Below, piece after piece: positions 11,988-51,896 of a stretch of DNA of 64,000 nucleotides. Each line of letters opens with the position of its first letter. Position 1 is the stretch's first letter. Origin of the DNA: Fistulifera solaris (lineage: Eukaryota > Bacillariophyta > Bacillariophyceae > Naviculales > Stauroneidaceae); NCBI GenBank assembly GCA_030295235.1, contig AP026155.1:372001-436000 (forward strand), in the 5' to 3' direction. A model generated the notes under the pieces. That model saw nothing but the letters and a program-made list of their open reading frames with translations. It did not search any database and was not told the DNA's origin. The position numbers were made by a program, and so were the translations under genes.

Positions 11988-13409
11988 ATGGACGAGCCGG
12001 GAAGAAAGAGAAACGAGAATCCTGGGGAGAAAGCTCGTGCCCTCGCCGGGCAATGGGTTGCCAGCGCCGGGCAAGCGATGCAATCCTTGACGGTGAGAAA
12101 GTATACTCTACCGGACAAAAACGTGGCTTCGCAGGTTCTCATGTACCGACAATTGCTCCATACGAAATGCCGTCCTGGATTGAAGCTTTCTCGCGAGTAT
12201 CAAGGCACGCCCGCTCAAAAGGCGGTTCTCCATATGCCATGGTGGAGCAAAGGTATCGAAGAATCCGGGACGATGGAAATTGCGTATGACCCGCTGATTC
12301 GTCGTTTGTGGCTGCACGGGGCCATTTTTCCGATTCAAGACTCCCCCAACGACGTCGATACTTTTCTAGACGACGAAGGAAACCCACCAGTACCTCATGA
12401 ATTCTGGGTATCACGTTTAGGGTTTCAACAAACAGATCCGGTAACGGACTTTCGTTCGGGTGGCGTTCTTTCGTTGGCTATGATGGTTTGGATAGTAGAG
12501 TCCTGTCCAGCGGTGTTTGCTCGATTCGTTCGACCTCACGGTGACGCATCCGTTTTACCATTTGGAATTACGAGCATAAATTGTACCGATATGATGGCGA
12601 AGTTTCTAATGCTCGCCAAGGCAGTCGATCGAATGGATGCCCTTCTTTCACAAAAACCATTTTGGCGCATGTTTGCTGACCCCAATGCATTACTACTTTG
12701 TCAAGAACTCGCAATGGATATGTTAGCGGATGTAGTTGTTGAAGTACGGTCTATTCGTCAAGCGGAAGCGGAAGCATTGGAAAAGAAAGATAGCGAGGAA
12801 ACCTCCTCTTCCAATGACAAGGTTGAATATGTCACGGTCTTTGATTTTGCTCATATTCTAGGTGTAACAGAAAAGCGAGTCGAACACGACTTGCTCGGTG
12901 CAGGACCAGGAACAGTGGCTGAACTGCGCAGTATTCACAGCCGTTTGAAGACACGCTACAAGCAGCAGTTGAGTAAAAAGTTGGAAGCAATCCAGAAGAA
13001 AGATGAAGGTACAAACAAGCAGCAACCCTCTATTCGTCCATTAAGCGCGAATGCTGCTAAAGAGCTTCCACAACAAGTATTGCAACAAGCAACTGAACTC
13101 AGTTCAAAGGCCAGTGCGTTTGCGGGGAAAATGTTCACCAAGCTCAAATCTCCTGGGTTTGCTCTTCAAAGTCCGATAAGAGTGACAAGCACCGAAAGCG
13201 AAGCCGTGGTGTTTGAAGATGGGAAAAGGGAGATGCATGTACCTGTAGTTGAAGACACAACCGACGTTAGGAAAGATATCAAAGAAGATGATGTGATGGA
13301 TGAAAAACCCAGCCAGATTGATGATGGTGATTGGGTGGAAGCTGAAATACCGACGACAACAGATATGGTAGGAAACTTCAGTATCGGTGATGATGACGAA
13401 GATCTGTAA
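11988..13409 (+). CDS. ELMO-domain protein
   Basis: Single exon, 473 aa, ATG at 11988. The ELMO/CED-12 domain covers about residues 115-290: HEFWVSRLGFQQTDPVTDFR, then SGGVLSLAMMVWIVE and PFGITSINCTDMMAKFL. The Asp-Phe-Arg of TDFRSGG is the ELMOD signature, including the arginine linked to ARL-family GTPase-activating activity. The C-terminal third is Lys/Glu-rich and ends acidic (DDGDWVEAEIP, GDDDEDL). Family members act on ARF/ARL GTPases or, with DOCK proteins, on Rac; no DOCK gene is nearby. Only one ELMO domain and no PH domain are visible, so ELMOD-type rather than ELMO1-type. Confidence 0.8.
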   Translation: MDEPGRKRNENPGEKARALAGQWVASAGQAMQSLTVRKYTLPDKNVASQVLMYRQLLHTKCRPGLKLSREYQGTPAQKAVLHMPWWSKGIEESGTMEIAYDPLIRRLWLHGAIFPIQDSPNDVDTFLDDEGNPPVPHEFWVSRLGFQQTDPVTDFRSGGVLSLAMMVWIVESCPAVFARFVRPHGDASVLPFGITSINCTDMMAKFLMLAKAVDRMDALLSQKPFWRMFADPNALLLCQELAMDMLADVVVEVRSIRQAEAEALEKKDSEETSSSNDKVEYVTVFDFAHILGVTEKRVEHDLLGAGPGTVAELRSIHSRLKTRYKQQLSKKLEAIQKKDEGTNKQQPSIRPLSANAAKELPQQVLQQATELSSKASAFAGKMFTKLKSPGFALQSPIRVTSTESEAVVFEDGKREMHVPVVEDTTDVRKDIKEDDVMDEKPSQIDDGDWVEAEIPTTTDMVGNFSIGDDDEDL

Positions 13410-29057: not shown

Positions 29058-32000
29058 ATGGGAGTACCGAAATTCTTCCGATGGCTTTCCGAACGCTATC
29101 CTAGAATCATTCAACGCCATGGGAGTCGCCCCACAGACGCTACTTGTCAGGAGCATTTTGGAAAGCCACCTCCCGACTATTTGCCTCCACCCGATCCGCT
29201 CTCGGAATGCGGTTTAGCACCGGAAATCGATCGTTTGTACATTGACATGAATGGGATCATTCACGGCTGTTCCCATAATAATGCCGATCTTGAGTTGAAT
29301 CCTGACGCGGAAGGAGAAGCGGATATTTCCGAAGAAGAGATCTTTCGAAATGTATCGTACTATTTAGATCGGATCATCAAGGATATCGCGCAACCGAAAG
29401 AACTTGTCTACATGGCGATTGATGGTGTGGCACCCCGTGCTAAATTAAATCAACAACGAGCTAGAAGGTATAGGTCGGGTCAGGAGGGAGAGATTGAACA
29501 GACCGTCTACGACGCTCACATCAAAGCCATGGAACGAGAACAAGCTGAAATGGACAAACTCAAGGAAGCGAAAGAAAGGGATAGTCAGGAATACTCTGCA
29601 GATGGGGTCGAAAAAGTGAAGGAAATTCAACCGGGTCGTTTTACAGGCAAGTTTGAAACGTTCGAAGGCTCCTCGTATTCTGAGAGTGCTGAAGGCGACA
29701 AGAAAAAGTTTCATTCAAATACCATCACTCCTGGCACCGAGTTTTTCCAACGTTGCACCGATTATCTGGAGCAGTTCATCAAAGATAAAGTAGATCATGA
29801 TCCTGCGTGGCAGAATTTGACCATTGTCTTCTCGGGACCTCACGTACCCGGCGAAGGTGAACACAAAATCATGCAATTCATGCGTGAGCAACAAGCAAAA
29901 GATGATTACAATCCCAACCTTCGTCACTGCATCGTGGGTCAGGATGGTGACTTGGTCATGTTGGGTTTGGCCACGCATGAGCCAAATCTGGTTCTACTGA
30001 GAGAGCAAGTCGTATTTTCCAAGCGGGCCTTGCAAGCGGAGCGACTCTCACAAAAGTACGGTCTTGACATGTACATTCACAATCCAAATTTTGAATTCAT
30101 GCACATGAATTTGCTGCGGGACTATTTGGCATTGGAGTTCCGAACTTCGAACGTTATTCCGAACTCGTCCTTTGATCTGGAACACACGGTGGATGACTTT
30201 GTTTTCATGACATTTCTTGTTGGAAACGATTTTCTTCCGCACATGCCGGCGATGGATATTGCCGACGAAGCATTTGATCTTATCTTTTTCACGTATCGTG
30301 AATTGAGAAAAAAGTGGCTTCGGCAAAGCAACAAACGTCCTGGGTTGATTCCTTATCTGACACACGAGGGAAATATAGTGTCAGGGCGTCGTTTGGAGGA
30401 ATTTTTGACTTTGCTAGGTCAACATGAACTTTACTACTATGACTACAAGAAAACAAACGAAAACCTGGAAGAAACAAGACGAGTTGAGGATAAATATGGC
30501 TATGACTTTACCCCGAGTGATGATGTTATTGTCTCAAAAGAAGAATCCGATCGTGCTCGTTTTCGAGAAATGATACGCAAAAACCTTGCAGATGAGGCCA
30601 GTGATGTTGAGCTGCAAACACCGGACCAAGCGGAGTTTTTCGCGCCAGTGCTCTCCGGGCCGTTGCACAGGCGCCGGACTATTGCTGGCGACGAGCCTGG
30701 TGTTGATGGTGAAGGTGCCGGATTGTTCACGCGTATGGGGAGCTTGTTGCAATACTCAATCGCGTCAGATGATTCTGGTAGCACTTCGCTCCAAATCGAT
30801 GACCAAGACGTTAAAGGAAGGTACTACTACGATAAATTTGGATTTTCGCCATTCGATGCAGAGAAACACGTTGCACTTCGAAAAGCGTACATAGAGGGGC
30901 TCGTGTGGAACTTAAAATACTATTACGAAGGCTGTGTTTCGTGGGAGTGGTATTATCCATACCACTACGGTCCTATGTTGAGCGATCTCGTTGGTTTAGA
31001 GAAAATTTTGAAAGATATCTCCTTTGAAGGGAAAATGGGTGAACCTCTGAAGCCTTTCGAGCAACTCATGGCATGTATGCCACCTTCTCATGCAAAGTTA
31101 CTTCCCGAACCCTATCGGCCTCTTATGACAGACGAAAATTCACCCATCGCATCATTCTATCCGCGTACTTTCACAATTGATATGAATGGAAAGCGATGGC
31201 CTTGGGAGGCCGTGGTTCTTTTGCCTTTTATTGATAGCAAGCGTCTTATTGAAGCAGCGAAATCGGTTGACTCCTCGTTGCTCTCACAGGAGGAATTAAA
31301 TCGCAATAGGCAAGGCGAGCCAGTGGTGTTTCAACGACTGGCGGATGGAAGGGATGCCTCTACTGAGAGCAAAATCGAGGTGACACCGTTGTCGTCTAGC
31401 TTTTTACACTATGCTGGTAAGCGGGTACCACTTTTTCGACCGAAGCTAAAAGATGGTATCCAGGTACCGCTCGGTGGCCGTCCAACACTCTGTGACGGTC
31501 TTGTCGAAAGTGTGATGCTTCGATCTGTACATCTTAATGTTCATGGTATGCAGAGTCGGTACAAAACTGCTTGTTTGGAACTCAGAAATGAAGCACTGGA
31601 GGTTCTTCCTGCCGAAACTATTGCCCCGCATATGATTGGGACAGTTATCTACATTGATTATCCCCATTTGACGGAAGCTTTTGTAACAGCCGTCTCTGAT
31701 CAGCAATGCATCGTTCGCGGTAACAAAACAAAGCGTCCGTGGTCGCTGAAAGAAGCTGCTGACCGCAAAATCGAAAAAAGGCGATTGATGAAAAAGTTTT
31801 TCTTTGGAGACCAATTACCAGGGTCTGGAGGTATTTCGTTCGGTAAGCTAGATAGCATGATGGAGATAGAGACAGTACTCCATGTTCGCCCGTTGCGTGG
31901 ACTTGAAACGCTTAGTGATGGTAGAGTGGTGAAGACTTTCGCCAAGTTTGAGGTAGAAGTACCACTATTCGTTACGTCGTTCCTTCCTAGCGAAGATGAC

Positions 32001-32081
32001 AAAAGACTCGCAGGTATACCAGTCAAACTCGAAGAAGACCCTTTTATTCCACCAAGACGCTTGTGGGTAAACGAATGTTAA
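29058..32081 (+). CDS. XRN1-type 5'-3' exoribonuclease
   Basis: 1,007 aa, one exon, ATG at 29058 (MGVPKFFRWLSERYPRII, the family N-terminus). Conserved blocks follow: LYIDMNGIIHGC, YMAIDGVAPRAKLNQQRARR, GPHVPGEGEHKIMQFMR, VGQDGDLVMLGLATHEPN and FLVGNDFLPHMP. The second half matches XRN1 rather than XRN2: SWEWYYPYHYGPMLSDL, then KPFEQLMACMPPSHAKLLP, and DMNGKRWPWEAVVLLPFID. This predicts cytoplasmic decay of decapped, 5'-monophosphate mRNA. It is shorter than animal or yeast XRN1 (about 1,500-1,700 aa). The stop at 32081 is followed by a long open frame on the same strand, so the C-terminus may be extended (see next entry). Confidence 0.9.
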   Translation: MGVPKFFRWLSERYPRIIQRHGSRPTDATCQEHFGKPPPDYLPPPDPLSECGLAPEIDRLYIDMNGIIHGCSHNNADLELNPDAEGEADISEEEIFRNVSYYLDRIIKDIAQPKELVYMAIDGVAPRAKLNQQRARRYRSGQEGEIEQTVYDAHIKAMEREQAEMDKLKEAKERDSQEYSADGVEKVKEIQPGRFTGKFETFEGSSYSESAEGDKKKFHSNTITPGTEFFQRCTDYLEQFIKDKVDHDPAWQNLTIVFSGPHVPGEGEHKIMQFMREQQAKDDYNPNLRHCIVGQDGDLVMLGLATHEPNLVLLREQVVFSKRALQAERLSQKYGLDMYIHNPNFEFMHMNLLRDYLALEFRTSNVIPNSSFDLEHTVDDFVFMTFLVGNDFLPHMPAMDIADEAFDLIFFTYRELRKKWLRQSNKRPGLIPYLTHEGNIVSGRRLEEFLTLLGQHELYYYDYKKTNENLEETRRVEDKYGYDFTPSDDVIVSKEESDRARFREMIRKNLADEASDVELQTPDQAEFFAPVLSGPLHRRRTIAGDEPGVDGEGAGLFTRMGSLLQYSIASDDSGSTSLQIDDQDVKGRYYYDKFGFSPFDAEKHVALRKAYIEGLVWNLKYYYEGCVSWEWYYPYHYGPMLSDLVGLEKILKDISFEGKMGEPLKPFEQLMACMPPSHAKLLPEPYRPLMTDENSPIASFYPRTFTIDMNGKRWPWEAVVLLPFIDSKRLIEAAKSVDSSLLSQEELNRNRQGEPVVFQRLADGRDASTESKIEVTPLSSSFLHYAGKRVPLFRPKLKDGIQVPLGGRPTLCDGLVESVMLRSVHLNVHGMQSRYKTACLELRNEALEVLPAETIAPHMIGTVIYIDYPHLTEAFVTAVSDQQCIVRGNKTKRPWSLKEAADRKIEKRRLMKKFFFGDQLPGSGGISFGKLDSMMEIETVLHVRPLRGLETLSDGRVVKTFAKFEVEVPLFVTSFLPSEDDKRLAGIPVKLEEDPFIPPRRLWVNEC

Positions 32082-35996: not shown

Positions 35997-38900
35997 ATGA
36001 CAGAACCTGTAAATATTACATTACTGCTCGATCGGTTTCTTTCCGCGAGTACCGCCGCCGATGTGCAAAATGCCCTCGAACACGTGTTATCGGCTTTACA
36101 GGATCCATCCGCAACGGAGGCTCTTCTCGCCGAACCAGATGTCCTCAAAGGAATGCTAAAACTACTGGCAACGCAATCTTACAAAAATGTCGGGGTCGAA
36201 GACGGAGACAATCTCTGTGCACGGATTTTGTGGCAAATTCTGCAAACATCCGACACGGCCAAGACGTTGTTGCAACGTCCCGAACTCGCGCTAATTGAAG
36301 TCTTGATGGATGTCGCAGCAACAAACGAAGACGAAAGCATCGAACGGTCTTCCTATACACGCGTCCTGTGTTTACAATCGTTGGAAAAGTTGTGTCACCA
36401 AGCACCGCAACTCGCGCAACAACAATTGTTGCAAGCCCCGAATGGGTTGCATCGGTTGGGGGAATTGTTGCATTGCGCCGACTTGGCGGTAAGGAATCAA
36501 GCCTTACTGGTAGCCCATTGTTGTGCGGCATGGCCTGCCGTCAGTCAAGTCTGGATTTTTCTCAATATTGTGCCCACTCTCTTACAAGTGGCATTGCAAG
36601 AAGGAGGATTGCAAGGTGGGACCGTTGTGGTGCAGGACTGTTTGCGGTTGTTGAGGAATTTGTTGCGACACGATACTTCCATGGCAGAATTAGTCTTCCA
36701 AGAACAGACGTTGGCACCCCAATTGTCGGTCTTGTTGGATTTGCGCCTCGGAACCGAATTTGTGCATCCCGTTGCGAAAAAGAAAATCGAGCCGCTCTTG
36801 TCGCGCAAAAAAGCAGTTGATGACTTGGATGACCTTCTGATGGAACCAAGTAGCAATCAAGAATCTTCCTCTGACGAGGAAATCATATTGCCACGCCTCA
36901 CGCGCGATGAAGAAAAAGTCATCCATGCTGTTTTGGATATTCTGGAATTAGTGTTGGAGAACAACAAAGTGCGTCAAGCGATTTGTACGCAGGATTTAGC
37001 GTCCATGGTGTGGGAATTGGGGTTGGTCAATTTCCCACCTCCGGGGAGTCGCCGCGCCCTGTGCGTATCCCAGTGCAAGCTTGCAACAACGGGCTTTGCA
37101 AATTACCGCACGTTACTTGAATGATCCCATTCTGCTGCAAAATCACAATGCCCTCCACCGTCTACTGCATTTGGTGTGTATGGGAGGGATACCCAAGGAT
37201 CGGGAGGACAAGTTGGGTGTCTCGCAATCGGCTTTGCATCTGCTGCGTCAGACGGTGCCTCCGGCACAGGCGCAGGAAATTTTACTTAACACCTTGGCGC
37301 CTCCTCTCACGGAGGAGACACCGGATCTGACACCTGTGCAACGACTCCTCATAACAGTCGAGAACAATTTGGTAGCGCCACCGGATACGGGCCGCACGGT
37401 ATTACTCGTGGGATCGACGTGTGCCTTGTCACTCTTTTTGGTCGATACCGCCAGTCGTGAAATGATGGTAAGGTTGATGGACTCCGGGTTGTTGCCTTCG
37501 ATATTGGAATTGTTACCGAACGAACCCGATACTCTGGTTACGTTGGTGTTGCTGCGGTTTTTGTGTCAATGGATGGATGGATCTCCGTTGGTGGTGCAAT
37601 CGATTCTGGGTGCACCACAAAGTGCGACGGTTTTGGCGGCCCTGTTGGAATCGAAGGATTCAACCATTGCCGCGTATGCGTCTCTGTTGTTGGGAATGGC
37701 GTTGAATCAAATGACCGACCAGCAAGATGTCACGAAATATGGAGGATGGACCCGTGAGGGTATTTTGGATATTTTTAAACATTCATTGAAGCTGTTCCTG
37801 TTGCGATTGGACGAGCTTGGTCCCAATCTAAACATGTGGTCGTTCTGTCCTTTGGAACACAAAGTGTGGTTGGAGGAGTTTCAGGCCAATGTTTGGACAG
37901 TGCGAAGATGCCTGGTGGCGGAAATGACTGTGCATAGTGAGTCGAGCGATGAGATTTCGTCTATGCAGGCTTTGATTGAAAAACAATCCAGTGAACTGGA
38001 AGAACTTCGTCAGGAATTGAATTTTTCGAAGAAAAGTCTAGTCCAACAAGGTACGTTGTCATCGCATTTTTGATCTCTCTGCTTTGTTGTTTCTTCTAAC
38101 TTGCTCCCCTAGAAAAGGAATTGTTGCTTTGGAAAGTAAGGGCCGAATGCACTCCAACCCAACTAGATGAATTGCTCAATCAATCCACGTCGCGCAATAC
38201 GGCATTAGAGAAAAAGGTGGAAGAGTTGGAAAGCTTGCTTTATCATATTGAAGCGGAGCATGCCGCTGATGTAAGTCGAAATACGGAACTTGTCGAGTCA
38301 TTGCAAGCAGAAGTTCAGAATGCCTTGCAGAATGAAACCCAAACCCGGGAAGACTTGGAGACCATGCAAGGAGAAATGACTGCTTTGAGCCAAGCTTACA
38401 CTAATCTTGAGGCTGAGTATCGTCGTCAAACTGAGCTTCTATCTACGAGTACAGCAGGGGCCGAGGGCAGCGAACAAAGCGCTCATCAAAACCAAGGTGA
38501 GGACTCAGAGAAGGAATTGTCACGTGGAAATTCAACGGAGGTAGCTATTCTTCGTGCTGAAAATACAAGATTAAAGAATGATATGAAAGTGGCCGAGGAT
38601 TGGATGGCTATGGCTCATCAAAAGCTAAGTGAGATACTGACCGAGAATACTGCGTTGAAAGGCGAGGTGTCGTCGCTCAGAGGACAAGTACAATCTCTCG
38701 GTGACCAGAGTGCAGGTCTACAGCAAGAGTTAAACTCGTTGCGCGAATATTATGGCTCGTCGAGCAATGAAGATTTGCGAAGTATTATATCTAAGACTTC
38801 GCAACAAGCGGAATTAGAGACAAATCTGAGAGAAGAAGCCGAGTCAGAACTCATTCATATTCGTGGATTGCTGGAGAAGGTCGAGAAAGACAAAGCAGAT

Positions 38901-41900
38901 CTGGAGCAGCGCATGAGTGAAATGAATCAAATGTTTATTTCCGAAAACGCGGCCACTTTTGGCCACAGCCAACCTAAAACGTTGCCGGCCGAGAATGACA
39001 CAGTGAATCTTCACGAAGAAGTTGAAGCAGTGAGAAAGGAACTTGCATTTGTGCTTAAGAGAGAAGAGGAGGCAATAAGCAATCGCGACGCACGTATAAG
39101 TGAGCTCGAATCTTGTCTCGATGAACGTGGCTTTCCCTCGGAAGAGCTACTGAGACGAGATAAAGAGATAGAGGAGCTTAAGCAACTTACCCAGGTTGCC
39201 CAAGAATGGATGGATAACGCCATCGAGCAGTACCACGCACTGCAGCAAGATAAGGAAGCTCTTTTGTCGGAAAAAGCAACTTTGACTAACCAATTGAGCG
39301 AGCTGGACAATCAGATACAAACCCTGATTCCGTCCATTTCCATGGCGACAGCGCAACCGGATCTACAAGCCCTAACATTGGCTTTGCAAGAAAAGGACTC
39401 TCTTCTCAAAGAATCCATGGCGACTCTCTCAGAAATGCAAGTTAGCCTCACAGAGAAAGAACACAATCTTGACTCTTTGAGATTTGAACTTCAGTCAGCC
39501 AATGAAGAAATTCAACAGAAGTGCTCGGAGTTGGAGTTATTGAGGCAAAATAGTAATAGTGCAGCGAATGAAATCCAACATTTGCGGGCCCAAGCCAAGG
39601 CGCTAACGTCGCGCGAGCAAGAGTTATGCAAAGAAATTGACGACCTTCGAAATGGGCAATCGTCGAATCAAGATTTGGTCGAAGGTCTTCACGTTGAAGA
39701 AAAACTCCAGCCAATCTAATCTCCTTCTTCAAATTGAGGAGTACAAGACAATGATGAGAAATTTGGAAGCACAGTTGTCCGAACAGGAATGCGACTCAAA
39801 TGACATGGTAAAAGAATGGGAGACAACGTACACTGACCTAGAAAAGCGTCACAAGGAGGTCCTTGGCGAGAAGCAGAAACTAGAAGATCTTTGTAGCGCA
39901 AAAGACGCGCGGATATATGAGTTGCAAGACGAAAACAGAAGCAAGAATGACGAGGTGAACGAGCTGACTATTCTGTTGGAGGAAAAGGTCCGAGTGATGT
40001 CGACCACAAATATTGTTGATACTGGTGAGGAGGAGAATCGTGAGGACAAGGACGCGACTATCAAAACTCTTTCAGATGAAGTAGAGACTTTGAAACAGCA
40101 GTTGCAGGCCATGGACGCAGAGTCGGTGGACGCGATTTCTCGCTGGCAGGCTTCCTATGCCGATTTAGAAGCACGTTACTTGGAATTGTGCAACTCCAAG
40201 GAGACGCCTGTCGTTGATGGAAAAGATGCCGTGCAGCTTGGCTTAGAGGACGGTTCCGTCGATCGTGTGTCTGAGTTGACTTCTCAGGTAACAAGGCTTC
40301 AGCAAGCGCTGACGGAGGCCGAAAGTGAATCGGCGGCAGTGGTGGCGAAGTGGCAGGAAGCTTACGCCGAATTGGAAGACAAGGTCCGTGTCGCTTCCGC
40401 TGACGAATCTGGTATGGGTGCTGACGTACAGGCTAGTAATGACGCCTTGAGCGATCGTGTATCTGAGCTGAATGCGCTGGTTACGAGTCTACAAGAGCAG
40501 CTAAGAGAAGCCGATGCTGAGCACGCTACTGTTTTGGAGAAATGGCAGCAAGGATATGCCGAACTGGAAGAGAAGGTCCGAGTGATGTCGACCACAAATA
40601 TTGTTGATACTGGTGAGGAGGAGAATCGTGAGGACAAGGACGCGACTATCAAAACTCTTTCAGATGAAGTAAAGACTTTGAAACAGCAGTTGCAGGCCAT
40701 GGACGCAGAGTCGGTGGACGCGATTTCTCGCTGGCAGGCTTCCTATGCCGATTTAGAAGCACGTTACTTGGAATTGTGCAACTCCAAGGAGACGCCTGTC
40801 GTTGATGGAAAAGATGCCGTGCAGCTTGGCTTAGAGGACGGTTCCGTCGATCGTGTGTCTGAGTTGACTTCTCAGGTAACAAGGCTTCAGCAAGCGCTGA
40901 CGGAGGCCGAAAGTGAATCGGCGGCAGTGGTGGCGAAGTGGCAGGAAGCTTACGCCGAATTGGAAGACAAGGTCCGTGTCGCTTCCGCTGACGAATCTGG
41001 TATGGGTGCTGACGTACAGGCTAGTAATGACGCCTTGAGCGATCGTGTATCTGAGCTGAATGCGCTGGTTACGAGTCTACAAGAGCAGCTAAGAGAAGCC
41101 GATGCTGAGCACGCTACTGTTTTGGAGAAATGGCAGCAAGGATATGCCGAACTGGAAGAGAAGGTCCGAGTGATGTCGACCACAAATATTGTTGATACTG
41201 GTGAGGAGGAGAATCGTGAGGACAAGGACGCGACTATCAAAACTCTTACAGATGAAGTAGAGACTTTGAAACAGCAGTTGCAGGCCATGGACGCAGAGTC
41301 GGTGGACGCGATTTCTCGCTGGCAGGCTTCCTATGCCGATTTAGAAGCACGTTACTTGGAATTGTGCAACTCCAAGGAGACGCCTGTCGTTGATGGAAAA
41401 GATGCCGTGCAGCTTGGCTTAGAGGACGGTTCCGTCGATCGTGTGTCTGAGTTGACTTCTCAGGTAACAAGGCTTCAGCAAGCGCTGACGGAGGCCGAAA
41501 GTGAATCGGCGGCAGTGGTGGCGAAGTGGCAGGAAGCTTACGCCGAATTGGAAGACAAGGTCCGTGTCGCTTCCGCTGACGAATCTGGTATGGGTGCTGA
41601 CGTACAGGCTAGTAATGACGCCTTGAGCGATCGTGTATCTGAGCTGAATGCGCTGGTTACGAGTCTACAAGAGCAGCTAAGAGAAGCCGATGCTGAGCAC
41701 GCTACTGTTTTGGAGAAATGGCAGCAAGGATATGCCGAACTGGAAGAGAAGGTCCGAGTGATGTCGACCACAAATATTGTTGATACTGGTGAGGAGGAGA
41801 ATCGTGAGGACAAGGACGCGACTATCAAAACTCTTTCAGATGAAGTAAAGACTTTGAAACAGCAGTTGCAGGCCATGGACGCAGAGTCGGTGGACGCGAT

Positions 41901-44900
41901 TTCTCGCTGGCAGGCTTCCTATGCCGATTTAGAAGCACGTTACTTGGAATTGTGCAACTCCAAGGAGACGCCTGTCGTTGATGGAAAAGATGCCGTGCAG
42001 CTTGGCTTAGAGGACGGTTCCGTCGATCGTGTGTCTGAGTTGACTTCTCAGGTAACAAGGCTTCAGCAAGCGCTGACAGAGGCCGAAAGTGAATCGGCGG
42101 CAGTGGTGGCGAAGTGGCAGGAAGCTTACGCCGAATTGGAAGGAAAAGTCCGCATTTCGTCCCCCCGACAATAATCTCGTAGCTGATATCTCATGTAGTG
42201 ATAAGGATAAAAACTTAAGGCTCGATGATGTTGTACGACAAACTGAGACGTTCAAGCAACATGGACAAGACAGGGAGAGATATGATGAGGTTTCTCATGA
42301 AATTGCTTTGCTTCGTTCACAATTACTTGAACAGGAGACTGAAGCACAAGATGCAATCAGGCAGTGGGAAATCTCCTACGCAGAGCTTGAAGAGCGATTG
42401 CTTAAAGTTACAAAAGAACATGATTGTGCACTATCATCAGGTTCTCCAGGCATTGTCGACCCTCCTTTTCTTGAATCTGCTGCTGATAAGAAAAGTATGA
42501 GTGACAATGAAGCCGATACTCAGATTGCAATGGGCGATAACAATTTCCTCGATGCTTTCCGTGAACTGGAGCAACGTGTATCCAAATTGACGAGTGAGGT
42601 GTCTTTTCTGCAGCGAGAACTGGTTGATAGCGAAAAAGAAGCTGCTAATGCCATTTCTACATGGGAGCAAGCGTACGCGAACCTAGAAGCAGAGCTACAA
42701 TTAGCCAAGAAGAATAATTGTGAAAGACACGATAGTGAGGATGTGGATGACAGAGATAGCTTGCTGACAAAAATGACAATTCATATCGCGACACTGAACG
42801 AGCAGCTCTTATTATATCAGACGCAATTAAATTCACGAACAGCAATGAATAAAAGTGATCAAGTAAATTCCCAAGTTGGTGACTCAACAGCCAATATCAA
42901 CGATGGCACCGTAACGCAACTCGAGGTTTCGCTCAACACAGACGCCGATGCAGCTTTCGCGGAACAGCGATACAATGAAGGACCTGAAGAAAGTAGTCAA
43001 AGTAGCCTGCAAGCGGAAGTATATAGACTACAGTGCAATATCAAAGTCATGCAGGAGGAAAAACAAACATCAGTGGCTGAATTACAAGAACGTTTAGCCT
43101 CGGCAACATCAGAGATGGTCGAGACTAAACAACAACTTGGCCTATTAAAGACAGAACTCGAACAAAATAGGCTTCAAGCGAATGAAAAGGCAGAGTTTAT
43201 AAAGCAATTAAGTCTAGAACGAGACCTGCTGAGTGAGTCTTTTAGGCGACTTGAGGATCAGTACGAAAAAGATGTACTCGCTTTCAATTTGGAACGCAAA
43301 GTATTGGAGGATGACCTCTTTAGCACACGAGAAGAGCTTAACTCGAAGACAATGCAAGCTAAGAAGCTAACCAACGATCTCAGAGAAAGCCAGGAAGCGC
43401 TAAGTCAAATGGAGTTAAAAATGAGGGGAGCAGACGAGGAAGACAAACTTCGAGTTCTTCTTGACGAGAAAACCGCAGCCTTGGTATTGTTGGAGGAGGA
43501 TCTAAGTCTCAAGACGTTTGAGCTTCAAAGCAAAAGTGCTGAGTGGGAGAAAGCGAAGGAGCGTGAGGCTGGTAAGTCGATGACGGTCAAAAGATTATTT
43601 GTGTTCATTTGCGCTAAGTTTGTCCCGCATAGAATTGGAGAGAGAAATTTCCCGTCTTCAGTCAGAGTTGTCGGACCAAAAGGAGGAAGCGGAAATAGCA
43701 ATAGCGAGCTGGGAGACACGCTGCGAAGAGTTAGAAGAGCTCTGTAAGTTTTCGCAGGATGATAAAGATAAACTCAACGACGCGTTGGAACGGGCTGGCA
43801 CTCTTGAAACAAGACTTCGAGAAACAGAGGAGCTTTTCAATGCACGACTCGAAACTGCCATATCCGAGCACGATCGTGTACAGAAGGCCATAGCTGACAC
43901 CTTGCGTCTTCAAACACAAGCCGAACATGAGAGACTGGAACTGATCGTTAGTACTTTACAAAACGAGAAGGCAGTGCTTATAGCTGAACGAGACAATCTT
44001 ACCACACGAGTTGCGGAATTAGAAGACGAAGTGCTCGAGTCTAGAGATGCAATGCGCTTTTGCATAACGAATGGCATGTCTGATAAGGCATTCGAGATCG
44101 CGACGCAGTCTCTGCTCGAACAGCTCAATCAGATGAGCGAACAAGCTGCTTCAAACGCAGCTAGCTTAGTCATGGAGCGACAAGGTCGCCAAGCCGCCGA
44201 GGAAGAGGTGAGGCGATTGAGATCCGATCTTGCACTCATTCTTGGAATGGAAAATGGCAACGAAAACGTCGCGGAAATTCAAAAGCTTACACTCAAAACG
44301 AAAGGGTACATTCAAAGGAAGGAGGCAGCTGAAATTCAATCGCTCCGGTCATCGCTGGAGCGAGCTCAAGCCGAATTGTCTGGATCCAAAGCGTCGGAGA
44401 TGGAATCGAAAGAACGTTCCGCGAAGGCAAATATACGTGCGACCGCACTGGAGCAAGAGTTAATCTCATCGAGGAACGATTTCCAGTATCTGGTGAAGAC
44501 GATGGAGGAGATGAGAGAAGCAGAATTGTCCCGTCGAGTTTCTTTCGAGTATCGTATCGACTCACTTGAAAATGACAAGGCAATGCTTAAAAAGATCCAA
44601 GCTACCGAGATCGACAATCTTCGAAACGAACTAAATCAGATTTGCATAGAGCGCGATCGTCTGTTTGTATCTTTAAAAGATAGCGAAAAGAGCAAAGAAG
44701 CGGTGATGCTTGCGTCGAACCGTGCCCAGTTATCCAATTTGAACGAGGAATCGGACTTGCATGCTGAACTAGACATTTTAAGAATTGAGAAGGCTCGGCT
44801 CCTCGCTGCTACAGCCGACGAAACATTACAATTTGAGCGTCGTTTGCGTGACGCAGTCGCAGCTGAACGTTCATCGTCCGAAGCGGACCTCATCCTTGAA

Positions 44901-45593
44901 AAAGAATTGCGACTTGCTGCTGAGAGATCTGTCGATGCACTCAAGCACGAACTCGAACAAATGCAAGTTGATTTGGATCGACCTGTCCATCCAGACGACG
45001 CGTTATCGACAACTGAGGCAATTCCAACGTCGCATGAAATGGTAGAGTTAAAGGCGCAAATTGAAAGTTTATTGATGGAAAAAGGAATTTAAAATCTCAA
45101 GTCGATACCATCAAGGCAGAATCACAACGGCGAATTGAGGAGCTGGCCCGCGAGTGCCGGGAGGCAAAATCGGAAGCTCTGCGAGTGGAGAGAGAAAAGT
45201 CTGTTTGAGGCAGAGTTGCAAGCGGAAATGTCGCGTGTTCAAAATAACGGCTCCTTTAGAAGAAACGAAGTTGACACGGAGGAAAGTCAGGGCATTTTTG
45301 AAGAGAAGAAAGATGCAATGCAGCTGGAACATCTACAGCGACTCTATGAAGCAATAAAAGATCAAAAGGAAACCATAGAAGAGGAAAGAAGTGTTTATTT
45401 CGAGCTACTTTCCGAGCAAGATGACCTTCTCGCACTTTTGGCACAGCAAGATCTTATGGAATCATGTCTGAAAGCTGCTCTTTGTCGCTTGGGTGGCGCT
45501 GAAGCCGTGGAAGAAGCTGCACAGGAAGCCAGAGAAAAAGCCGAGGCACAGTACGGGAAATACATCGAAGTGTCGGCTGTTGAGTCGACCTAG
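35997..45593 (+). CDS. Giant USO1/p115-like vesicle-tethering factor (golgin)
   Basis: Predicted Golgi tether for COPI/COPII vesicles. Start ATG 35997. Two real introns, 38051-38112 (62 nt) and 43572-43632 (61 nt). Residues 1-700 are the armadillo-like USO1 head (EDGDNLCARILWQILQ, VLRNL-type repeats, ELLPNEPDTLVTLVLLRFLC, YASLLLGMALNQM). From about residue 680 the protein is continuous coiled coil. The C-terminus ELLSEQDDLLALLAQQDLME resembles the p115 tail. Five single-base frame breaks occur, at 37043-37046 (G), 39700-39704 (A), 42161-42166 (C), 45079-45083 (A) and 45195-45198 (A). Correcting them gives 9,471 coding bases, exactly 3,157 codons. That is over three times metazoan p115 and well above yeast Uso1 (about 1,790 aa). 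A 588-bp coding repeat accounts for about 720 residues. Confidence 0.8.
39985..42142 (+). repeat. 588-bp tandem coding repeat, 3.7 copies
   Basis: Copies begin at 39985, 40573, 41161 and 41749, each with AAGGTCCGAGTGATGTCGAC; the last stops after about 394 bp. Each full unit encodes 196 residues with tryptophans at unit positions 54, 123 and 187. Copies are almost identical at nucleotide level. The few differences include GTAGAG (copies 1, 3) against GTAAAG (copies 2, 4), and TCAGAT against ACAGAT (copy 3 only). The unit is a multiple of three, so copy number can change without breaking the frame. Confidence 0.95.
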
Positions 45594-46202
45594 TGACTTC
45601 TTCAATTCAATCTCCCATTTTGGATTGCATTCTGCCAATAGAACGGCCTGCTCTCCGCGCGTCACCATTATGATTCAACAATGCAATGAGAAGCGAGACA
45701 GACATTAGCTTCGCACTGACTCACATAATCTAGATTCTAGTGTGGAATATCACTCTCAGTAAAAAAAGCAATAACTTACCCAGATACGGTTTACTTGGAG
45801 AGGAGCTTATAGGCTTTAAGCAGACGATGTGTTGCTGAGAGAACGACGTCATCATTACCGAATGGCAGACAGACTTGGAACAAAGCCGAAGGCTAAAAGC
45901 CGCCATCCACGAAAACTTTCATCACAACAAAATTGTCCCATTAACCATTCCCTACATTCTATTTTAAAAAGCTTGCATTCATCAGCAAGGAAACATACGT
46001 TGTTACCATAAAATCATCGAAACTATCCCCATTTGCAGACTTGAGCTCTCCCTCGGTAGTTTACTGATTGTTTTTCTTCCGTCGAGAACTCGTGATTGCC
46101 GCGCCAAGAATTTCGGAGGTGAAATAGTGATGATTTGCCAATAGACAACCTATCTTGCAGACGAAACAGCGAAGTGTCTGGATCCCAAAACAAGGAATCA
46201 CG
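45594..46202. other. Intergenic
   Basis: 609 bp between two plus-strand genes. The frame of the next gene opens on TTG at 46155; its first ATG is 46203. No element recognised. Confidence 0.4.
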
Positions 46203-49200
46203 ATGAATGGACACGGAGGAGAGATGGACCCACAATCTTTGGAAAGATGGATACTTCAATCGAATGATCCTTCTCAACCCACGGCTCAAATTCAAGCAAT
46301 CACAATGTTGAGGGAGTGGTCGTTATCATCACCCCGAGAAGTAGTTATCGCCAGTATGTTTCAGGTCCTAGACCGGTCGTCGGAAGAAACAGCCCAGTTT
46401 TATTCACTCGGAACACTGGGACGTATGGCTCTGGACGAGACAGAAAGAGCATCCTTCCGACAGTATTTGCTCTATCGATTTCCGCCGGCATCTTCCACTT
46501 TTCTTCGCAACAAAGTAGCATGGATTCTTGCTCGATTCCTTTGGGAAGACGTCCCTGTGCGCTGGACGACATTGGAGCATGATCTCATCCATCATTTATC
46601 CGTCTCCCAGCCCGCTCTGTACTGCAAACTTCTAGAAACGGCGATGGAAGAGTTCTCGGCAGCCGTCATTCGTGAAGACCCGAATAACATCGTTTATGAT
46701 GAAGAACAATCGTTTTTGACCAACTCTTCCTTTTATTCAACGAAAAATGACATGCGAAGAGTAAAGGACTATTTTAAAGACTACATCAACGAATACGGAG
46801 AGGCCACGGGTAAGCAGCCAAATGACACAGAGACAAATACACTGGCCCATCGACTGTTCGATCGCATCGTGAAGGTCCTAGAGGATTGTATCTTCATTTT
46901 ACAGAATGGGAACGATGCAAAGGGACAAGCTATGGAGACTGTGGGACTTGCTTTGAAATCGATGAGGCAGTTTCTGATGTGGATCGACCTTTCCCACGCG
47001 GACACACAGGGCGAAGGAGTTGCGCAGCCAAAAGCAATCGAAATCCTACTCTACCTTCTGTCAATCTCCGACTATCCAGCTCATATTCATGTTTTGGTCT
47101 TCCAGGTGTTGAGAGAATGGAATAGCGGTGCACAATCTACCCACGAAACAGCGCTACTATCTGACCACGAGCTTCATGTTTATTCTGCCGTCTTCGAACA
47201 AATTCACAAAGCAAATCTTCTTCCTTACAACGTCGAATCGTCGGCACCGATTGAAGTAGTGATTGAGGTAGCCAAGTTTGTCGATTCTGCAGGACAACAC
47301 CTTTTGACCGTGTTCGTGATTGAAAGCGTCAAAGCAACACCAGAAATACAGGTTAACGCTGACAAGATAAAGAGTGCTTTGTTCCAGGCGCTAGATCTAT
47401 TCTTTCGCGCATTCAGCTATGATGACATTGATGTATCTGCTGCTGTTTTCCCACTAGGCGGCAACCTTATTTCCGAAATGGAGAAACATGCATCATTGCA
47501 AATTCACTTGCCTCAGCTATTGAATGTGCTATACAGCCAACTGAAATACCCAGCCGATTTTTCGTACGACTACGAAGATGAATTAGTCGCAGAAGAGATG
47601 GCGTATCGTGCTGATCTGGCGAAACTGTTTGGAAAAATGGTACGCATTGATTCAAATATTTGGCTTCAATTTGTAGTTGCGACAGCTCAACGAATGGAAG
47701 GAATATCTAAAGCACCGACGCAAGAAGTTGAAGTATTTTTACGCCTCCTTTACCATTTCTGCGAAGGTATACGACCTTCACCTGGCTTAAAAGTCGTCAT
47801 GAAGAATCAAGTTTTCTGTTCACTTTTGACGGCGTTACATCATAGCGATATTGCTGACCATCCCCATCGCGAGGTCTTGTGTCTTTACTACGATACTGCG
47901 GTTCGCTACCATCCTATTTTCATAACCAACTCAGGAAATGCTAAGGTGGCGAATACGCCGTTACTGTCTCGAGTTTTGGAAGCAATGGTGAGTTTTCGTA
48001 GTTAACAATCAAATGTTACTCTATCGCTTTTCCTCACACGGGTGTATTCACAGAGCGGCACCAGAGGCTTACTACATTCCCATGTCAGAGTAAGATCACG
48101 TTGCTGCTATCTGCTTCTCAATTTGGTAAAGCAAACAGCGCCAGTTCTGCGTCCTTTTGTAGAAACAGCAGTTTTTGGTATCCGTGGCCTTCTGTCCAAT
48201 GGAGATTATTGCTCAACGCTTAGACCGGATGATTCTCTCTACCTTTTTGAAACTATGGGCATATTATTGGGAAAGACAGCGCTTGAAGCTGAGAAGCAGA
48301 GGGGATATTTAGTTGAAGTGGTGACTCCGCACATCGAGAGGGTTAGACAAGAAATCGCTTTTGCAGTTTCCACTGTGGACACTGACCACGAAACTGCAGA
48401 TTTACGAGAAGAGATGCTGGCTAGCGCGATCGCCGCAGTCGCGCATCTTAGCAAGGGTTTCTCTAAGCCATCAGACGGAGTTTTAGCTGTATTATCTGAT
48501 TCGGTACATGTGGTGCTATCTTTTCTTCAAATAGCTCCGACAAGCGAACTAGTCAGAAACAAAACGATGGTGTTCTTACAACGCATGATTGTTACTATCG
48601 ACAACCGCGTCCTACCCGAAATGCCTCAATTTCTCTCCCTACTAATTGAACACTGCGATGCCGATGACATTTTTTCGTTTCTCAGTTATTCAATCAGCTT
48701 TGTTTAAAGTTTAAAGAATCTTCTGTCCCTACGATTGACGGACAATTGATTCCACTGCTAAGAAAATGCCAACAACTTGTGCCGACCCAAGGAAATGGTA
48801 AAGGACAGCCTCCTCATATCTGCGCGGAACAGTTGGCTGTGAAGAAGCTAATCTACGTTGTATTGCAACATATTGTCTCGAATAAAGCCACGTCAGTTCT
48901 AGTTTCACCTTCTAACGTCGGAAGCCTTGAAAGTATTCTTGAGACTATTCGCGACGGAGCTACCAGAGTTCAAGATCCGACTATCCAGAAAACATGCTTG
49001 AGGTTCTTCCGCGAGCTCGTCGCGCAATGGCTTCCTATGGAACTCCCGGGGATGAGGTGGATCTTTACGGTCGTGGCTTGCTGGTTTTCACACTGACTCA
49101 TTTGATTCCAGATGTCATCAACTGCTTTTTTCAAATTCAGTTTGAGGAAAAGATGCTCTTTACAGCCGTGTGATACACGAGTTCGCAAACATTCTATTTT

Positions 49201-49674: not shown

Positions 49675-50865
49675 TTAATTACCCGCTTTCTTCTTGCGGT
49701 AGTCATCCATCTCTTCTTGATAACGCTTTCTGTCATCGTCGGACTTCTTCTTGTAGTAATCTACCTCTTCGGGATTTAGCTCTTGCCAACGCTGACTGAT
49801 AAGGCGACCAAGATCCTCAAAACTGATTTTGCCATGAGGGCGACTTCGTCCTTTTCGTTGTCCCTTCTCATCATCCCCCTTTCCGGCTTTATCGCCCTTT
49901 CCGGTGTCTTCGCCTTCCTTGCTGCCCTCATCCTTGTCATCATCGTCCTCATCATCAGCAGCCGCGGCGGCAGCAGCTGCTGCAGCACCAAGGATTCGAG
50001 CACGTTCTTCCTTGAAAAAGAAATTGTAAGCAGAAAGTGGGCGCTTCGGTTTGTCTTTCGGTCTCTTCTTGTACGTTTTCTTTTTGATTGCTTTAGGACC
50101 CTCCGGAGCACTGACACCAGCGTGGCTTGCGCCACGATTCCCGGTGACGTTTGCAGCCGTAAGTCCAGCCGGGTTAGAGCCAACGCTTTCAGCCAGCTGA
50201 ATATTGGCCTGAAGCTGTTGTTGCTGCTGTTGCTGCTGCTGTTGCTGCTGTTGAAGCAACTGTAGAAGCAGTTGATTGTTCGAATCTTGAAGTCCACCTC
50301 CAAAGTGACCTCCACCCGCGCCTTGTAAACCAGCTAGAAGATGCTCATTTCCATGCATGCCTTGATGAATTCCCTGTTGCTGGCGCAGAAGCAATTCTCG
50401 TTCAAGTGCAAGCTGATTCGAGCTCATTACATCGGGGCTTCCAAGCCCACCATAGCCTAACTGAACTCCCCCGAAAGACTGATGAATTTGCTGCTGTTGC
50501 TGTTGTTGCTGCTGCTGGAGAAGCTGCATTAGCATCTCATTGTTACCTCCGACTCCAAGCATACCGCCAGGCATACCGCCGCCGGCGAAGACCTGTTGGT
50601 GGCCCATATCCAGCCCGCCCTGCTGCTGGAGGTTGCGAAGTTGAAGCATCTGCTGGATGGAAAGATTCTGGCCGCCAATATCTCCTTGAAGACTGTCACC
50701 TAGTCCTCCTCCGGCGTTGCGCATCTGCTGGAGCATGGCCAGCTGCTGAGATTGACCACCTTGCTGCTGAAGTGCATTCATCCCGAACAGCTGCTGCTGC
50801 AGGCCGTAATGTTGCTGCTGCTGAAGTTCGTCAACGGGCGTCTGTTGGTGCAAGTGGTTCTGCAT
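49675..50865 (-). CDS. PolyQ HMG-box protein with an interrupted HMG box
   Basis: 396 aa, single exon, ATG at 50865 (MQNHLHQQTPVDEL). Residues 1-250 are Gln/Gly/Met-rich with glutamine runs of about 10 and 13, typical of transcriptional coactivators. A basic segment (IKKKTYKKRPKDKPKRP) leads into an HMG box: PLSAYNFFFKEERARIL is helix 1 and KISFEDLGRLISQRWQELN the second helix, then EEVDYYKKKSDDDRKRYQEE. Between them is an insert of about 60 residues (ten alanines, an Asp/Glu run, then Gly/Lys/Asp). Probably a nuclear DNA-bending or transcription protein. No frame breaks despite the CAG/CAA runs. Confidence 0.85.
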   Translation of the reverse strand: MQNHLHQQTPVDELQQQQHYGLQQQLFGMNALQQQGGQSQQLAMLQQMRNAGGGLGDSLQGDIGGQNLSIQQMLQLRNLQQQGGLDMGHQQVFAGGGMPGGMLGVGGNNEMLMQLLQQQQQQQQQQIHQSFGGVQLGYGGLGSPDVMSSNQLALERELLLRQQQGIHQGMHGNEHLLAGLQGAGGGHFGGGLQDSNNQLLLQLLQQQQQQQQQQQQQLQANIQLAESVGSNPAGLTAANVTGNRGASHAGVSAPEGPKAIKKKTYKKRPKDKPKRPLSAYNFFFKEERARILGAAAAAAAAAADDEDDDDKDEGSKEGEDTGKGDKAGKGDDEKGQRKGRSRPHGKISFEDLGRLISQRWQELNPEEVDYYKKKSDDDRKRYQEEMDDYRKKKAGN

Positions 50866-51896
50866 TTGCTTCGAAAGGGTGATGCAATGTGAGGGTTGTG
50901 AGACAAGCGACAATAGTGAAGAATCGGATTGCGCTGTAGATGCAAAGAACCTGTTGTGCTTGCCTGTTGTCCAATTGTTTAGGAGACCTATAACTTCGCT
51001 TTATCGTTAATTACAACCGAATACTGCGTTATCAAAATTCAGCAGATGTTTCTCTCCAACAGCGATCAGGTGACTGTAGACATCTTACCACGATCTACGT
51101 AGAAATTTTTTCCATATCTTTCTTGAAAACTTCTGCACTATGGTCCTTTGCAACAACGATGTCTTCCGTACTCCGTATTTCTGAGTAAGCATTTATGGCG
51201 CCTTGTTTCCCTTATTTAAAAACCAACGTGCGAGCAATCGACATGAGGATCCGATATTTATGAAGGCGACAATAGCCTACTATGTACCTAAATTTCTATG
51301 TCCTCTTGGACCTCTACCATAGAAAAAAGTACGGAACCGTTGTAGTTTGTACTTAGTAAAATACCAAAACACACAGATTCATAGGTTGCGGTTCGCGGTT
51401 ATCCGTACCCATTACAGGCTACTGGCAACGCATGACGTTATATTCTTTACCTGACGCTTCCATTCACAGGGCTACATAGTACATAGTACACTTTTTAAAA
51501 TAGTTTCTAGTGTCCGTTGGTCGTTAATCGTGAATAAGCAATTGGGGATAAAAGGAAACAGTAAAACGTTATTCAGTCTTTACCACAGCAAGTAGTACTG
51601 GCAGCACATGGCAGATGGCAGATGGCAGGAGAACTTATTAGGAGAACGACGAACGAAGAACGAAGTACAAATACAAAAGAAATGAGTGAGTAAACCGTCA
51701 ATGGTCATCAAGGAGAAAGATAAACAACCAATTTGAGTCTGGAGTCCAAGTCCCGGATAAATTTCCTTGAAAAAACTTGAATGCGAGTGTGTGACCATGA
51801 CCAAAAAGTTGAGCCTAACAATTTCCACCACGTGTTGTTTTTACTAAGATCTACTTCATTGACGAGCTGTTCGCTTACTTTGACAGGAGACGAGTT
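50866..51896. other. Long divergent intergenic region
   Basis: 1,031 bp between the HMG-box gene (minus) and the MORN gene (plus). It holds a short direct repeat (GGCAGAT three times, about 51608-51627), a TACATAGTACATAGTAC stretch near 51474-51490 and several GTAC-containing elements. No RNA gene or protein gene recognised; promoters of both neighbours are expected here. Confidence 0.4.

Follow-up and report, generated by a model that had tools for sequence, protein, structure and literature searches.

A 64,000-nucleotide (nt) stretch of the genome of the diatom Fistulifera solaris (contig AP026155.1, positions 372,001 to 436,000; hereafter the window) carries a gene for a giant p115/USO1-like tether with a repeated tryptophan-containing module in its coiled-coil rod. 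On balance, we think that these modules are rod-building segments whose aromatic core lies at a stutter in the heptad pattern, that they are particular to this tether, and that they were amplified in tandem and homogenized. What is new is a gene-specific repeat module, a variant rod architecture in a known tether family. How golgin-type tethers set their reach and flexibility is an open question, and this gene supplies a natural series: one rod with seven diverged versions of a segment, and two copies of the gene in the same assembly that carry it in different numbers.

The motif W-x-x-x-Y-x-x-L-E is present in 15 copies in the rod of the window gene, in seven sequence types (M0 and A to F), and a near-duplicate of the gene on contig C38 has 12 module copies. 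The original prediction, made from the DNA letters alone, had described a recurring A-x-x-x-W-x-x-x-Y-A-x-L-E. Its W...Y..LE core is real, but the conserved unit is longer, about 47 residues from roughly -32 to +14 around W. When the seven types from both genes are aligned, L-18, L-14, W0, L+7, and E+8 are invariant in all 14 modules. Y+4 is kept in 12 of the 14, with Cys in its place in module F of both gene copies. This version, WETRCEELE, had been called decayed, a label that the comparison does not bear out: its W and C are unchanged between the copies. Modules lie on both sides of a 588-bp tandem array in the rod, M0 before it and D, E, and F after it. As had been proposed, the repeated module is genuine, belongs to the rod of a Golgi tether, and is older than the array.

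The motif lies far above chance. Exact W...Y..LE matches number 11 in the 1350-residue open frame of the near-duplicate, compared with at most one across 20,000 shuffles. In pairwise scoring against 1294 rod windows outside the modules, 18 of 21 module-type pairs exceed the highest-scoring window (the others are M0-E, A-F, and C-F); identities between types are 8-19 of 35. In a leave-one-out profile, the seven types score 27.2-50.2 and the best of the same background windows 13.7. Chance and low complexity are rejected by the shuffles and by both sets of scores, and by these comparisons the modules are homologous. The best background window, at 43061, keeps the heptad half but lacks the Trp, and might represent a decayed module lying between E and F. 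Rod tryptophans at 38601 and 39207 (AEDWMAMAHQKL, AQEWMDNAIEQY) share similar contexts and look like a separate small pair; we rejected them as module members at profile scores of -21.1 and -16.6.

We searched the species' own genome (a 51.7-Mb assembly of 61 contigs) for further copies. Of the 31 places that matched a degenerate motif pattern, the window gene has 14 and the C38 gene 11, which leaves 6 elsewhere; a backwards-pattern control matched none. Judged by eye, none of the six outside places has a coiled-coil context. tblastn (E <= 10) found at least 25 matches for module E and at least 24 for module B, all in the two genes; these counts are lower bounds from the best-scored candidates. 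Within the sensitivity of these searches, ordinary coiled coil is thereby rejected as an explanation in this genome. The module profile and the head pieces found nothing in viral contigs, nor did the C-terminal piece in prokaryote genomes; confined to viral and prokaryote sequence, these negatives say little about relatives elsewhere. Among the matches listed in a literature search no title dealt with a diatom p115 or such a module.

The whole-module profile had 60 matches in the PDB at E <= 10 (best 1.2e-4). Of five alignments examined, four are confined to the heptad half; the fifth, the HIP1 coiled coil 2qa7 (E 0.0047, profile positions 2-47), is alone among matches below E 0.01 in covering the motif from end to end, and it has Leu and Val at the places of W and Y. 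We read it as generic coiled-coil likeness. Two keratin matches also span the motif (E 0.011 and 0.045, profile positions 7-53). The Trp half alone gave five matches at chance level (E 0.57-2.1). The original prediction could name no repeat like it, and this is supported by the chance-level matches of the Trp half and by the confinement to one gene pair in the genome at the sensitivity applied.

Where Trp and Tyr lie on the helix was examined by scoring heptad register with both residues neutral. The best register is the same in 14 of 14 modules, with a at 0 upstream and at 4 downstream (mod 7). The shift corresponds to a four-residue stutter between L-14 and the I/V/L at -3, just before the Trp, and it puts W at d and Y at a, both core positions. 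The Leu and Val of HIP1 at these places fit such positions. If the stutter is left out, at a period of 3.5, W lies 11-21 degrees from the upstream stripe, which is still core, and Y 62-73 degrees. Thus, as far as sequence can tell, the Trp appears to sit in a buried helix seam. Substitutions between the gene copies avoid the core: 2 of 89 stuttered core positions changed versus 34 of 208 other positions (p = 3e-4), or 3 of 89 versus 33 of 208 with a plain heptad core.

The near-duplicate allowed us to compare selection along the rod. It shares about 88% DNA identity over the aligned locus and is followed by a matching copy of an exportin-like gene (Pfam name); the synonymous divergence (dS) in the head is 0.37-0.39. 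F. solaris is reported to be allodiploid, its 42 pairs of homoeologous chromosomes having an overall homology of 75% (PMC5935921), and a diverged syntenic gene pair, compared at this locus alone, fits that description. Between the copies, the ratio of nonsynonymous to synonymous divergence (dN/dS) is 0.12 in the motif core, 0.23 over the whole module, and 0.30 in the pooled non-module rod, the pieces of which range from 0.125 to 0.54. Linkers are freer, at 0.40 in the array and 0.70 between D and E. Six of 91 motif residues changed, versus 186 of 1101 in the rod (p = 0.007, uncorrected for multiple tests), and W, Y/C, L+7, and E+8 are identical in 7 of 7 module pairs.

Structure prediction, which had been suggested as a check, is in keeping with a segmented rod. 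We ran AlphaFold2 on window sequence alone, as single chains from single sequences. For B1-C1-A2-B2, it predicts helices at residues 5-54, 61-119, 128-181, and 202-251, with breaks in the linkers (mean predicted local distance difference test score, pLDDT, 63.8; predicted template modeling score, pTM, 0.45). In all four modules, the helix starts 32-41 residues before W and ends 16-17 after it. For D-E, helices are predicted at 2-9, 15-67, 103-165, and 172-215 (mean pLDDT 72.0, pTM 0.29); the two module helices mostly reach pLDDT 84-94, and the linker is near 38. These models support helical modules joined by linkers, and do not distinguish a parallel dimer from a folded bundle. Spectrin repeats are three-helix repeats of about 106 residues. 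No spectrin match appeared in Pfam at E 0.01 in the gene pieces scanned, and the spacing here is 63-69 residues in the array and variable outside it; the module does not resemble a spectrin repeat in either respect.

The original prediction had the motif recurring every 63-69 residues. This is accurate inside the array, where W-to-W gaps of 207, 192, and 189 nt (69, 64, and 63 residues) recur. Outside it the spacing breaks down: from M0 to A1 it is 327 nt (109 residues), from B4 to D 250 nt, from D to E 297 nt (99 residues), and from E to F 1048 nt, which is about 330 residues once a 59-nt intron is subtracted. The 250-nt gap after the array is 159 nt in the near-duplicate, so that this interval is 83 or 53 residues, 30 different between the copies. 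The regular spacing therefore belongs to the recent array and not to the module, and a role for it as a functional ruler is not supported.

Tandem Repeats Finder misses the array, the longest period that program considers being 500. Comparison of full units (three in the window gene and two in the C38 copy) gave 0-2 differences in 588 nt inside either gene and 67-69 across the two. In both genes, the array starts with A and ends with B, with four A-modules in the window gene and three in the C38 copy. The simplest account would be that the array predates the split of the gene copies and has been homogenized separately in each. Pair scores are highest for B-C (99), followed by A-D and B-E (83 each). 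This ranking suggests, from sequence likeness, that an older A-B pair gave rise to D-E and that B gave rise to C before the triplet was amplified.

In our proposal, each module would be one helical segment of about 47-50 residues, made of four ordinary heptads, a four-residue stutter, and about three further heptads. Trp (d) and Tyr (a) would form the first core layers after the stutter, filling the inter-helix seam just past it and keeping the segment in register. The two chains would run as a parallel dimer, by analogy with p115/Uso1. Acidic, poorly helical linkers, of 20-26 residues in the array and 9 to 53 or more outside it, are predicted to join most modules and would allow bends, making the rod a chain of stiff segments that may act in tethering. 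Old duplications would have produced the seven module types, and later tandem amplification of A-B-C would have added 196 residues of rod per copy, with homogenization continuing. Should the module recur across diatoms, it would offer a defined coiled-coil building block, a stutter plus an aromatic core, that is testable residue by residue.

Several observations weigh against this reading. The 14 modules are homologous and hence are not 14 independent register tests, and M0 has a runner-up register that scores almost as well (1.45 vs 1.29; 1.29 vs 1.12). The angle of W depends on the period, at 33-50 degrees off the stripe for 3.6 and 67-88 for 11/3. With core changes of 2/89 and 3/89 under the two registers, the substitutions support constraint on the core and do not choose between registers. 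Two-stranded coiled coils seldom have Trp in the core, so more than packing may lie behind its strict conservation. Nor is segmentation special to the array, because Gly/Pro content per residue (0.0387 in the array frame, 0.0385 in the upstream rod) and mean heptad strength (1.46 and 1.50) are alike. The B3-D linker in the C38 copy has just 9 residues. Whole modules changed at 30 of 252 residues versus 186 of 1101 in the rod, a marginal difference (p = 0.056), and the constraint on one plain stretch of rod, behind F, matches that on the motif core (dN/dS 0.125). Finally, the AlphaFold2 models are of single chains from single sequences, and the four-module model resembles folded helix bundles.

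The repeats might also have grown neutrally or nearly so, with unequal exchange multiplying an ordinary coiled coil and the conservation being that of any coiled-coil core. Array copy number differs between the two genes, units are homogenized, a 90-nt linker indel is tolerated, and much of the conservation, in modules that as a whole evolve only marginally slower than the rod, falls on core Leu, Ile, and Val. Nevertheless, W is kept in all seven types at identities down to 8-19 of 35, the motif core is more conserved than the pooled rod, and the module was found nowhere else in the genome. We consider such neutral growth rather unlikely.

The strict Trp could instead be explained by partner binding. 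The original prediction suggested that the aromatic positions could be binding sites, for example for Rab GTPases, and each module in the series might bind Rab1 or another partner, with the tether holding many Rabs along its rod. Rab sites are reported along the length of golgins (PMC4707255), different studies put the Rab1 site of p115 in the head or in the coiled coil (PMC10275640, PMC7619307, PMC2645507), and besides the invariant W, E+8 is invariant although it is not a core position. However, with a period of 3.5 the hydrophobic stripe takes in W under either register (less clearly at other periods), and Y joins it after the stutter, at odds with exposure. Copy number and outside-array spacing also vary, an AlphaFold2 model places RAB1 on the Uso1 head (PMC10275640), and in a Rab6-BicD2 model the aromatic interface residues listed belong to Rab6 itself (PMC11077774). 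Nothing in our analysis marks the Trp as a Rab contact, and we regard serial Rab sites as quite improbable.

We also considered that the modules fold back into an antiparallel helix bundle, compact or spring-like, in place of an extended parallel dimer. The four-module monomer has a pTM of 0.45, designed four-helix proteins dominate its top Foldseek matches (template modeling score TMq 0.38-0.52), and linkers of 20-26 residues would permit hairpins. Yet Foldseek found no match for this model at E <= 0.001, the best being designed helix bundles, and a single-sequence monomer model is of low confidence and cannot form a homodimer. The low pTM for D-E, the absence of spectrin matches in the Pfam scan, and the description of p115 as a homodimer with a 45-nm coiled coil (PMC2645507) also speak against a bundle, which we judge very unlikely. 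A different possibility is that each module is a register switch, in which the conserved stutter and the aromatic core pair create a locally metastable coiled coil able to shift register or open. A tether with many copies could then yield or collapse, perhaps when Rab1 or a SNARE engages it, and array copy number would set its reach. We hold this idea to be a long shot. Our preference remains for stiff rod-building segments with an aromatic core.

The assignment to p115/USO1 comes mainly from the head. With phmmer against the PDB, the first head piece matched yeast USO1 (6lst, E 1.7e-10) and mammalian p115 (3gq2, E 1.6e-9; 2w3c, E 2.4e-9), which identifies an armadillo head of the Uso1/p115 type. 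The second head piece matched Pfam Uso1_p115_head at E 0.0076, under the Pfam cut-off, and had a single chance-level PDB match (E 2.2); a genome search with PF04869 found no match, and its 14 controls were likewise silent. Behind the head, the heptad pattern runs through the tested open frames, giving the long coiled-coil rod of p115/USO1. The C-terminal piece matched Uso1_p115_C at E 0.0064, also under the cut-off, with a best PDB match of E 0.32. This family matched four places in the genome, none over the cut-off (window gene mid-rod 38619-38912, E 0.0198; C38 copy C-terminus, E 0.0375; two others, 0.087 and 0.275), and three prokaryote controls also match below the cut-off. No GRIP domain appeared among the Pfam matches (E 0.01) of the seven gene pieces scanned. 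The repetitive frame 39694-42171 matched 23 Pfam families at E 0.01. Four of them exceeded their own cut-offs (FlxA, DUF4407, T4_neck-protein, and Tetradecapep), with no individual stretch of any passing alone, and we read these matches as repeat and coiled-coil composition and not as family membership.

Compared with known tethers, the window protein has the layout of yeast Uso1p and mammalian p115, an armadillo head with a long coiled-coil rod behind it, and differs from them in the Trp module and the 588-bp array. Its rod is roughly 2,350 residues, whereas the whole yeast and human proteins have 1,790 and 962 (PMC11559087). An acidic C-terminal tail is typical of known members, and we did not take it as defining; the last 17 residues contain 3 acidic ones here versus 12 of 17 in A. 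nidulans Uso1 (PMC10275640), and the last 121 residues carry a net charge of -14. p115 is termed a golgin in one account (PMC2645507) and kept apart from the canonical golgins in a review on account of its globular head (PMC4707255). Conserved Trp also occurs in the capture motifs of other Golgi tethers, GMAP-210, golgin-84, and TMF (PMC5267433, PMC5840792). Those motifs are N-terminal, whereas the module here is a repeated, mid-rod coiled coil, with its Trp apparently in the core, that begins about 1,220 residues into the protein (estimated from coordinates). GCC185 has a coiled coil with predicted breaks and needs central flexibility for tethering, and the description used here mentions no family of sequence repeats built on a fixed Trp (PMC4721967). 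Bicaudal D has a Rab-binding coiled coil, with registry shifts named in titles cited by PMC11077774; its structure 4bl6 weakly matches the heptad half of the module alone (E 0.25, profile positions 8-31).

Table 1. Positions of the tether gene, its modules, and its linkers in the window, with the basis for each assignment.
Feature	Position	Strand	Basis or remark
p115/USO1-like gene	35997..45593 (approximate)	+	introns and 1-nt frame breaks; ~3,160 residues read through (estimate)
Armadillo-type globular head	35997..38070	+	phmmer vs PDB (first piece), Pfam Uso1_p115_head (second piece)
Coiled-coil rod, roughly 2,350 residues	38121..45227	+	open frames, heptad pattern
Module M0, before array	39721..39861, W at 39817	+	motif, pair and leave-one-out scores
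588-bp (196-aa) tandem array, ~3.6 copies, unit A-B-C	39977..42129, limits good to ~30 nt	+	sequence
Module A1	40048..40188, W at 40144	+	motif
Linker A-B	40189..40254	+	net charge -3, 4 Gly/Pro; predicted helix break
Module B1	40255..40395, W at 40351	+	motif; predicted helix -33..+16 around W
Linker B-C	40396-40446	+	net charge -4, 2 Gly/Pro; predicted helix break
Module C1	40447..40587, W at 40543	+	motif; predicted helix -41..+17
Linker C-A	40588-40635	+	net charge -5, 1 Gly/Pro; predicted helix break
Module A2	40636..40776, W at 40732	+	motif; predicted helix -37..+16
Module B2	40843..40983, W at 40939	+	motif; predicted helix -32..+17
Module C2	41035..41175, W at 41131	+	motif
Module A3	41224..41364, W at 41320	+	motif
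Module B3	41431..41571, W at 41527	+	motif
Module C3	41623..41763, W at 41719	+	motif
Module A4	41812..41952, W at 41908	+	motif
Module B4, last of array	42019..42159, W at 42115	+	motif
Linker B4-D	42160..42268	+	contains 90-nt stretch without counterpart in near-duplicate
Module D, after array	42269..42409, W at 42365	+	motif; predicted helix -31..+21, pLDDT ~87-94 over most
Linker D-E, predicted disordered	42410..42565	+	pLDDT ~38 over model residues 71-100; dN/dS 0.70
Module E, after array	42566..42706, W at 42662	+	motif; predicted helix -42..+20
Module F, behind intron, Tyr to Cys	43638..43754, W at 43710	+	motif, leave-one-out score

The reading frame of the gene is interrupted in several places. 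At 37040-37085, the two head frames meet at a frame change without a visible ordinary intron, and the same is seen in the near-duplicate (L004 near 2530-2570), where the copies also differ by a 2-nt deletion in L004. A very short intron or an assembly artifact might account for it, or something else. Single-base length differences between the gene copies break frames at 39697, 42161, and 45199 in the window and at 7579, 8111, 8137, and 8945 in L004; several lie in homopolymers, and they look like residual assembly error. A pseudogene is not favored, as these differences sit at different places in each copy and purifying selection acts on the two pieces of the head (dN/dS 0.065 and 0.105). Reading by eye, we noted a probable 59-nt GT-AG intron at 43573-43631; it directly precedes module F, which would therefore start at an exon edge. 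Among the neighbors are genes that look like an ELMO/CED-12 protein (11988-13409), an XRN-type 5'-3' exonuclease (29058-32081), exportin-T (46155-48005), and an HMG-box protein (49675-50913).

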